A stretch of DNA of 20,882 nt from positions 1-20,882 of IMG/VR virus record IMGVR_UViG_3300044616_001507. One strand, written 5' to 3'. Each line of letters starts with the position of its first letter. The first letter of the stretch is position 1. A model generated the notes under the pieces. The model saw only the letters and a list, made by a program, of their open reading frames with translations, ran no database searches and was not told the DNA's origin. Positions 17,493 to 18,890 of this stretch are shown here, one piece after another. Source of the stretch: a virus. Position numbers and translations under genes: made by a program.

Positions 17493-17743
17493 CATCCGCG
17501 TGGGAAGCCGTATTTGAAACCTCCCGCATCACGGATGCCGCTCCTCTCCGCGCCGCCGGATGGCGCACCGTCCGCGAAATCGCCGACGACCTCGGCCTCA
17601 GCTACTCCGGAGCCTCCCGTATGCTTTCCGGGAAAGCCAGCAAGGGCCTGCTCGACCGCTGCACCCACAAAGTGGACGACGGCAAAGGCACCCCGCGCAC
17701 AACAACCTTCTACCGCCCCGCAAAAAAATCGGGCAAGGCTTAA
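17450..17743 (+). CDS. Winged-helix / helix-turn-helix DNA-binding protein
   Basis: A 97-residue protein from ATG 17450, which starts inside the phosphoesterase gene. Residues 38-71 (WRTVREIADDLGLSYSG, then ASRMLSGKASKGLLDRC) are a classic helix-turn-helix in a winged-helix layout: IADDLG in the first helix, S..GASRML as the recognition helix, then a wing with KVDDGKGTPRTTTFYR. This is the MarR/Rrf2-like size class, but no closer family is clear. It probably regulates nearby genes. Its TAA stop shares the palindrome TTAA with the stop of the convergent minus-strand gene. Confidence 0.65.
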   Translation: MRKKKGESLASPDLTSAWEAVFETSRITDAAPLRAAGWRTVREIADDLGLSYSGASRMLSGKASKGLLDRCTHKVDDGKGTPRTTTFYRPAKKSGKA

Positions 17744-18126
17744 TCCTCGCCGGTCATGTCGAGATACCAGATATCGTTGATCTGCTCGAGGGTGCCGCGC
17801 ATGGAGACTTTTCGCACTTTGTCTCCCTGGTATTTGAAATCCGTGCCGTAGCGCCGCGCGAAGGCGTCGGCTTTGTCTTTCGGCACGAGGACATCGATGT
17901 AGGAGGTATCATCCTCATCGCGCGACATCGTGTAGGCGCTGAAGATCACCTTCGAACCATCTTGGCTCGATGCCTGGCGCCTGACATGGGCCGTGTAGAG
18001 AACGATCTTTTTGCCTTCGTATTTCTCTGGAGTGTTCAAATAAAACTGCGCATCCCGTGTGGAGTTAGCCTTGGCAAGAGTGGCGGCTAATACCAGCGCG
18101 GCGAGAGTGGAAAATAAAAGTTTCAT
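17740..18126 (-). CDS. Secreted OB-fold-like protein (candidate moron)
   Basis: A 128-residue protein from the ATG at 18126 (minus). Residues 1-20 form a signal peptide (MKLLFSTLAALVLAATLAKA) with an AxA-type cleavage site. The mature part is strand-rich: YLNTPEKYEGKKIVLYTAHV, then VIFSAYTMSRDEDDTSYIDV, VPKDKADAFARRYGTDF and MRGTLEQINDIWYLDMTGED. The NTP.KYEGKK.VL and RGTL..IND.WYLD strands have an OB-fold feel. It is read opposite to all surrounding phage genes, in an operon with the RHH gene, and converges on the HTH gene. It may be a lysogenic-conversion (moron) gene or a host-derived fragment. Confidence 0.6.
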   Translation of the reverse strand: MKLLFSTLAALVLAATLAKANSTRDAQFYLNTPEKYEGKKIVLYTAHVRRQASSQDGSKVIFSAYTMSRDEDDTSYIDVLVPKDKADAFARRYGTDFKYQGDKVRKVSMRGTLEQINDIWYLDMTGED

Positions 18127-18136
18127 GACTTGGAAA

Positions 18137-18376
18137 TTATTGACCTTTAATTTTTCCAGGGCGATAAGAAACTTTGGAGCGTGGGGCAAGAGGCGCAGGA
18201 TCGTTTCCTTCCGGGCTGTCCTGCAGTATCGAGCTGTTCCCTCCTCCGAGATCTTGCTCCACCAACCACCGCATGTGGGCGGCTAGGCTGCGGTGTTCGG
18301 ACTTGGCACGCTTTTTGATTTTCTCCACAAGGCGGGGGTCCGCCCGGAAGCCAACGAATTTTTCTTCTGCGCTCAT
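18137..18376 (-). CDS. Ribbon-helix-helix protein 1 (minus-strand repressor candidate)
   Basis: A 79-residue protein starting at ATG 18376 (minus). Residues about 6-45 fit the Arc/MetJ-type ribbon-helix-helix: a strand FVGFRADP, a first helix LVEKIKKRAKSEH and a second helix LAAHMRWLVEQDL. The C-terminal 35 residues are polar and basic. Members of this family are small dimeric repressors. The start codon sits two bases from a perfect palindrome (18379-18397), as expected for autoregulation. The stop is 10 bases before the secreted protein's ATG, so the two form an operon. Confidence 0.75.
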   Translation of the reverse strand: MSAEEKFVGFRADPRLVEKIKKRAKSEHRSLAAHMRWLVEQDLGGGNSSILQDSPEGNDPAPLAPRSKVSYRPGKIKGQ

Positions 18377-18378
18377 AT

Positions 18379-18397
18379 CGTTAAAAATTGTTTAACG
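18379..18397. promoter_or_regulatory. Palindromic operator candidate O1
   Basis: CGTTAAA, AATTG, TTTAACG: two perfect 7-base arms with a 5-base spacer, two bases upstream of the minus-strand RHH gene start. It covers the place of that gene's ribosome-binding site and probably of the -10 region. Likely an autoregulatory operator; this is inference. Confidence 0.65.
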
Positions 18398-18477
18398 AGT
18401 GCACGCATTCCGCAACTTTTATTTTCTCTCTCGCTGCACCCCGAAAAAATAATTTCGCCCGCAAACCCAGTCCCCAT

Positions 18478-18489
18478 GCGGGTGTCAAG
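18478..18489 (-). promoter_or_regulatory. TTGACACCCGC element on the minus strand, copy 6
   Basis: The reverse complement of 18478-18488 is TTGACACCCGC, matching copies 2 and 3 over 11 bases. It points towards the minus-strand RHH gene about 100 bases downstream. This is the only copy on the minus strand and the only one outside the structural region. Confidence 0.5.
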
Positions 18490-18509
18490 AGAAATCTTTC
18501 GTGAAACAT

Positions 18510-18523
18510 GGGGTGAATACCCC
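18510..18523. other. Small palindrome in the divergent control region
   Basis: GGGGT and ACCCC with a GAAT spacer. Its position midway between the two RHH genes fits a regulator site or a small hairpin, but the arms are short. Confidence 0.3.
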
Positions 18524-18535
18524 GCCAGATAAAAT

Positions 18536-18580
18536 CTTTGATTGCAAAGTGAGCACACTTTGAAAATAAAGTGAGCACAC
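18536..18580. promoter_or_regulatory. Multi-half-site operator candidate O2
   Basis: CTTTG (18536-18540), CAAAGTG (18545-18551), CACTTTG (18556-18562) and AAAGTG (18568-18573) lie as alternating half-sites. CAAAGTG-AGCA-CACTTTG is a perfect palindrome. AAAGTGAGCACAC is repeated exactly at 18546-18558 and 18568-18580, 22 bases apart (two helical turns). The last copy touches the ATG at 18581. This suits cooperative binding by an RHH dimer array that blocks its own expression. Confidence 0.7.
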
Positions 18581-18769
18581 ATGAGCGACGAACAAAACGA
18601 CACGGCCAACCCCTTCATCGGATTCCGCATCCCGGCCGAACTCCACGCCCAAGCCCTTCGGCGGATCGATGGGACCTACTCCAGCTTTTCCGAATACCTC
18701 CGCGACCTCGTGCGCCGCGACACGGCGGCCCGGCGCGAGTTTTCGGATGCCAACCCAACCCAACCCTGA
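18581..18769 (+). CDS. Ribbon-helix-helix protein 2 (plus-strand repressor candidate)
   Basis: A 62-residue protein. Residues about 10-50 form an Arc-like ribbon-helix-helix: a strand PFIGFRIPAELH, a helix AQALRRIDG, then TYSSFSEYLRDLVRRDTA. The opening MSDEQ... and the GFR in the strand resemble RHH protein 1 (MSAEE, GFR), so the two look like distant paralogues. The start codon directly follows the repeated AAAGTGAGCACAC, with no clean Shine-Dalgarno site. The C-terminal NPTQP is encoded by a short CCAAC repeat. It starts the rightward micro-gene chain. Confidence 0.7.
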   Translation: MSDEQNDTANPFIGFRIPAELHAQALRRIDGTYSSFSEYLRDLVRRDTAARREFSDANPTQP

Positions 18770-18776
18770 TCAATAA

Positions 18777-18890
18777 ATGAGTGAGCAATACGAAACCATC
18801 CTTCGATGCCTCGGCTACGGCATCGAGTTTTTCCAACTCCTCGCCCTGCCGGTCGTGCTGGCGGCGCTTACCAAGAGGTTGGCGAAATGA
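18777..18890 (+). CDS. Micro-gene: 37-residue membrane peptide
   Basis: Starts at ATG 18777 and stops at TGA 18888-18890. The peptide begins MSEQYETILRCLGYG and then has a hydrophobic stretch (FFQLLALPVVLAALTKRL) long enough to cross or sit in a membrane. The stop overlaps the next ATG by ATGA, which supports it being translated. Function unknown. Confidence 0.45.
   Translation: MSEQYETILRCLGYGIEFFQLLALPVVLAALTKRLAK

Follow-up and report, generated by a model that had tools for sequence, protein, structure and literature searches.

The arc/mnt locus of phage P22 is the textbook example of a divergent pair of ribbon-helix-helix (RHH) repressors. In the annotated P22 record, sieA, orf59a and mnt are on the minus strand, arc and ant are on the plus strand, and the arc/mnt operators lie in between. 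This region, immI, modulates immC and the frequency of lysogeny (PMC11016777). AmrZ of Pseudomonas aeruginosa, a host regulator with many targets, represses its own gene from an operator whose half-sites flank an A/T linker of 5 bp (PMC3325190), and the RelB box of E. coli is TTGTAATTACAA (PMC2812701). Here we analyzed a 20.9-kb IMG/VR virus fragment (the window) in which two RHH genes, RHH1 on the minus strand and RHH2 on the plus strand, point away from each other with 204 bp in between. The pair is placed at the border of the late and early genes: late genes for tape measure, amidase and phosphoesterase lead up to it, and very small genes follow in a chain beyond RHH2. No description of this pair was found in the literature searched. 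On sequence evidence, we consider it fairly probable that RHH1 and RHH2 are paralogous RHH repressors that form the early-control region, probably for immunity, in a lineage of temperate phages. The features of the locus are as follows.

17740..18126, minus strand: small secreted protein (signal peptide by inspection), the cargo behind RHH1; same gene in the sister contig L197
18137..18376, minus strand: RHH1, 79-aa Arc/Mnt/AmrZ-like ribbon-helix-helix protein (Pfam, PDB profile, structure model)
18378..18398, no strand: site 1, TCGTTAAA-AATTG-TTTAACGA, proposed RHH1 operator (sequence, shuffles, conservation)
18456..18490, no strand: third conserved block, an inverted repeat (CGCCCGCA-N13-TGCGGGTGTCAAGA) with a minus-strand TTGACA (alignment, 14 distinct intergenic regions)
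18545..18562, no strand: site 2a, CAAAGTG-AGCA-CACTTTG (core TGAGCACA at 18550-18557), distal box of the proposed RHH2 operator
18568..18580, plus strand: site 2b, AAAGTGAGCACAC (core TGAGCACA at 18572-18579), proximal box directly 5' of the RHH2 ATG
18581..18769, plus strand: RHH2, 62-aa ribbon-helix-helix protein, apparent RHH1 paralog (hhalign, NCBIfam, structure model)
18777..18890, plus strand: membrane microprotein of 37 aa (by inspection), first gene behind RHH2 and start of the micro-gene chain

A first-pass annotation of this DNA had proposed a divergent pair of RHH candidates, and both open reading frames were found, each RHH-like by profiles and models. The Pfam Arc model matched the window RHH1 with an E value of 0.0028, under the cut-off, and it matched 10/10 RHH1 family members (best E 1.4e-5). 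Searching the RHH1 profile against the PDB returned AmrZ (0.0029) and Mnt (0.1); by this comparison AmrZ is the nearest solved relative of RHH1. The RHH1 structure model has helices at residues 14-26 and 31-44 and its top structural match is Arc, with a probability of 0.99 but an E value of 0.39. The Arc/CopG-type profile together with the two model helices places RHH1 in the ribbon-helix-helix (MetJ/Arc) superfamily. RHH2 had no Pfam RHH match in a single-protein search and was assigned to the RHH fold through profile comparison. Aligned by hhalign, RHH2 matched RHH1 at 97.6% with an E value of 3.4e-12, indicating common descent of the two proteins, and the YlcI/YnfO and ParD models of NCBIfam matched 12/12 RHH2 members, weakly. 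The RHH2 structure model, with helices at 19-29 and 36-57, gave weak structural matches to Arc (Z 3.5-3.8) and NikR; together with the RHH1 and NCBIfam matches, the Arc match puts RHH2 in the same superfamily. The RHH proteins scored low in single-chain fold searches, which is expected because a protein of this kind is an obligate dimer of ~60 aa. The predicted DNA-facing residues F-G-R, taken from our alignment to known RHH proteins, are identical in the window RHH1 and RHH2, and specificity for different sites must therefore come from elsewhere.

The first protein searches recovered close relatives and one diverged relative, and the final set comprised 18 IMG/VR contigs with RHH2 relatives, down to ~45% identity. 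A divergent RHH1 was present in 17/17 contigs that extend far enough, at a spacing of 182-204 bp. We sorted the contigs into group A (the window and L195-198), group B (L199, the same contig as L007), group C (L201-203), group D (L204-206) and group E (L207-212), while L200 stands alone. Searches of the phage collection gave one weak Arc-type match and distant amidases. In a tree of the first 46-50 residues, RHH1 and RHH2 formed two separate clades with support of 100/100, and the within-clade distances of RHH1 and RHH2 were correlated (Mantel r 0.94; 0/2000 permutations), suggesting an old duplication that was passed on jointly. As judged by tree and distances, RHH1 and RHH2 are ancient paralogs co-inherited as a unit.

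Each start codon had been proposed to abut its own palindromic site, and both sites were located and are kept in relatives. The CGTTAAA-N5-TTTAACG described before the minus-strand gene is present, with arms one bp longer than described (8 bp), and the RHH1 start is 1 bp away. When the intergenic region was dinucleotide-shuffled, a dyad as good as site 1 was seen at the same place in 2 of 500 shuffles. L200 and groups A, B and C keep GTTAAA-N5-TTTAAC with varying linkers. The same 17-bp frame reads GTGCAC-ACCTT-TTGCAC in group D (dyad GTGCA..TGCAC), and the group E counterpart, GTAAAC-AAACA-TTTCAC, is a poorer dyad; taken singly, the D and E dyads are insignificant (matched in 108-156 of 500 shuffles). 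The RHH1 dyad is rewritten in the groups with an altered DNA-reading strand of RHH1, while the RHH2 core stays. The strand FVGFRA, FIGFRA or FVAFRA accompanies the GTTAAA-type site, and in D and E it becomes F(I/V)S(F/V)RVP, position 9 changing from G/A to S. This joint change of site and strand is no more than suggestive of a link between the protein and site 1, because one or two changes along the tree account for it. Among the matches listed for the first DNA scan with the site-1 pattern, the majority were unrelated; the site-1 scans also retrieved three contigs (L089, L186 and L190) with distant, previously unseen RHH1 genes that start at the site. The geometry of site 1 matches that of the AmrZ operator, with its half-sites on either side of a 5-bp linker, although the half-site is GGC in AmrZ and GTTAAA here.

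Before the plus-strand gene, CAAAGTG-N4-CACTTTG and a 22-base-spaced repeat were both found where the first-pass annotation had placed them. The 13-bp AAAGTGAGCACAC occurs at 18546-18558 and at 18568-18580, a spacing of 22 bp, with the second copy ending at the ATG, and the first TGAGCACA box sits within CAAAGTGAGCACACTTTG. Dinucleotide shuffles of the intergenic region produced the 13-bp repeat in 0/500 cases and the 7-bp site-2 dyad alone in 12/500. Two boxes 21-22 bp apart precede every RHH2 start seen, the second touching the ATG or lying <=2 bp away in all cases. The TGNGCNCA core occurs twice, spaced by 22 bp in A and B and by 21 bp in C-E, and each of the two L200 boxes has one mismatch. 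A scan of 2.9 million contigs with TGTGCACA-N13/14-TGTGCACATG returned 14 stretches, 12 of them RHH2 starts; the remaining two share one repeat sequence. The pattern was taken from groups C-E, and the scan is a measure of specificity, not of discovery. Conservation in relatives is stronger evidence for the sites than the shuffle statistics. Loss of the palindromes in related phages had been named as an outcome that would speak against the first-pass proposal; the sites persist and the bases between them change. At least five natural forms of the paralogous RHH pair, with operator forms to match, exist in this lineage, and the parting of the DNA specificities of duplicated regulators is therefore directly testable on natural sequence pairs.

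A second exact copy of site 1 or site 2 was not found elsewhere in the window, and the exact sites were each confined to their own gene in 7/7 contigs checked. Mutual repression and autoregulation had both been offered as possibilities; this confinement favors autoregulation of RHH1 and RHH2, and mutual repression is invisible in the window, where RHH1 has no good RHH2 box. We infer the pairing of protein and site from adjacency, uniqueness and joint change, and repression and a role in lysis-lysogeny are likewise putative. In the proposed mechanism, RHH1 would bind site 1 as a dimer of dimers, on half-sites either side of an A/T-rich 5-bp linker in the manner of AmrZ, and would repress its own leftward operon, made of RHH1 and the cargo gene. 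RHH2 would bind the pair of 8-bp boxes, spaced by two helical turns, cover its promoter as far as the start codon and repress the rightward early operon that it heads. In the window these circuits seem to be separate, with cross-repression at most weak, and in group D cross-repression may be real.

In temperate phages, CI and Cro normally occupy a position such as that of RHH1 and RHH2. Integrase genes were found in 10/17 contigs, and the lineage is therefore temperate; in L200 and groups C-E the integrase gene adjoins the RHH1 operon, and in A and B it is found on the far side of the early operon. The locus resembles the lambda-type CI/Cro region in having a leftward gene with cargo and a rightward gene heading the early operon, in a temperate phage with an integrase. 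It differs in fold (RHH here, HTH in CI/Cro) and in its operators, which are separate in the window and shared in the lambda type. We read the region as one of probable immunity because the pair has the place and the company of CI and Cro. The 17 contigs gave no HTH_3 match over the cut-off, which agrees with this reading, although all of them are fragments and may lack the part that holds another repressor. If this role is true, an RHH-based immunity region would be added to temperate phage biology. As a tentative possibility, two duplicated RHH repressors whose operators extend to the start codons might replace CI/Cro as the primary lysis-lysogeny switch; a cross-acting switch (group D, one operator type at both genes) and separate autorepressed circuits (the branch of the window, two distinct types) would then have arisen from each other.

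We also considered a cross-acting switch of the CI/Cro kind, in which both proteins bind both operators with unequal affinity and repress each other. Group D carries an exact RHH2-type box, TGTGCACA, on both start codons and another copy in between; cross-repression is suggested there, and only there, because of the exact box on the RHH1 start codon. The paralogy of the proteins and their shared predicted DNA-facing residues in the window also fit such a switch, as does a one-mismatch RHH2 box in the RHH1 promoter of some A and C members (L195, L201). However, the one-mismatch box near the window RHH1, which we rejected as a third RHH2 site, is about what chance provides (0.64 expected in the region), and the window operators are unlike in sequence and spacing. 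We regard a cross-acting switch as somewhat unlikely for the lineage.

The genes around the pair bear on a further reading, an unlikely one in our judgment, in which the locus is a secondary immunity region like immI of P22, with RHH1 as Mnt, RHH2 as Arc and an antirepressor directed against a distant main repressor. The resemblance to P22 arc/mnt in another arrangement, already remarked in the first-pass annotation, held up: both loci have a divergent RHH pair in mnt(-)/arc(+) order, distinct operators in between (here by sequence conservation only) and accessory genes behind the leftward gene (orf59a and sieA in P22). The Bro-N domain is common in antirepressors, and a 260-aa Bro-N protein (E 1.1e-24; 27034-27816 of G006, a group B phage) is encoded in the early operon behind RHH2. 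It is a possible antirepressor and hints at a further target repressor in that phage. However, Bro-N was found in just this one of the 7 contigs tested and not in the window, ant is absent from the window, and an HTH_3 repressor gave no match above the cut-off in 17 contigs, all of them fragments. In other contigs the early genes behind RHH2 are, by inspection, HTH/excisionase-like, RecT-like and NTPase-type, which also speaks against an immI-like region; overall, RHH2 is followed by microgenes, HTH/excisionase-like genes and genes of recombination or replication. The locus also departs from P22 in its intergenic region, which at 204 bp is longer, in the placing of one operator at each start codon, and in its position at the late/early border and not inside the late region, with RHH2 heading the early operon. 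The region looks related in style to arc/mnt, differently built and placed and not a copy of immI; by analogy, it may work like part of immI without being a full member.

The secreted-protein gene is probably co-transcribed with RHH1. One side of the pair had been said to control a secreted protein; that gene does lie directly behind RHH1, but it is not constant, and the cargo of the slot differs between phages. The slot is hypervariable across L195-L212. It holds a 95-aa protein in L195, a different secreted protein of 223 aa in L198, a 100-aa membrane protein in L199 (B) and L204 (D), and further proteins elsewhere. These RHH1-side cargo genes are candidates for lysogenic conversion or exclusion genes. 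On the other side, proteins of ~39 aa similar to the window microprotein were seen behind RHH2 in L007 and L204, and these recurring microproteins of 37-39 aa have one probable membrane span and a CRSLGY/LRCLGY-like start.

It is very unlikely that RHH1 and RHH2 belong to toxin-antitoxin modules as antitoxins that autoregulate through these operators. RHH2 is weakly ParD-like, and scans of genome collections gave no match or only ParD-like antitoxins (by inspection), in alphaproteobacterial MAGs without the pair. RelB/ParD-type antitoxins share the RHH fold and autoregulatory palindromic boxes, and groups D/E have a sequence, TTGTGCACAA, similar to the RelB box (TTGTAATTACAA). However, the boxes here are 21-22 bp apart and not contiguous, the genes behind RHH1 vary freely, and no recognizable toxin adjoins RHH1 or RHH2 among the neighboring proteins scanned for toxin families; we rejected this reading for want of an adjacent toxin gene. 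That the palindromes arose by chance or are shared through recent descent alone is scarcely credible: the group A intergenic regions are almost identical, but the sites are kept across groups despite far-diverged flanks and with dyad-preserving changes, and they were near-diagnostic in the DNA scans.

Leaderless translation was rejected as a special feature of RHH1 and RHH2; both start without a Shine-Dalgarno motif, yet so do the majority of predicted window genes, which may hint at the host group. A scan for a consensus sigma-70 promoter found none, and the promoter boxes picked by eye, TTGATT-N17-TGAAAA for RHH2 and TTGCGG-N17-AACAAT for RHH1, are guesses. In groups D and E an extra TGTGCACA/TGTGCGCA box was observed at a near-constant position, about 53 bp away from the RHH1 start (intergenic position 56 in L204; likewise in L206, L210 and L211). 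Every group has the third conserved block in the middle of the intergenic region, although in E it is weaker; the block could be a promoter, an activator site or a hairpin.
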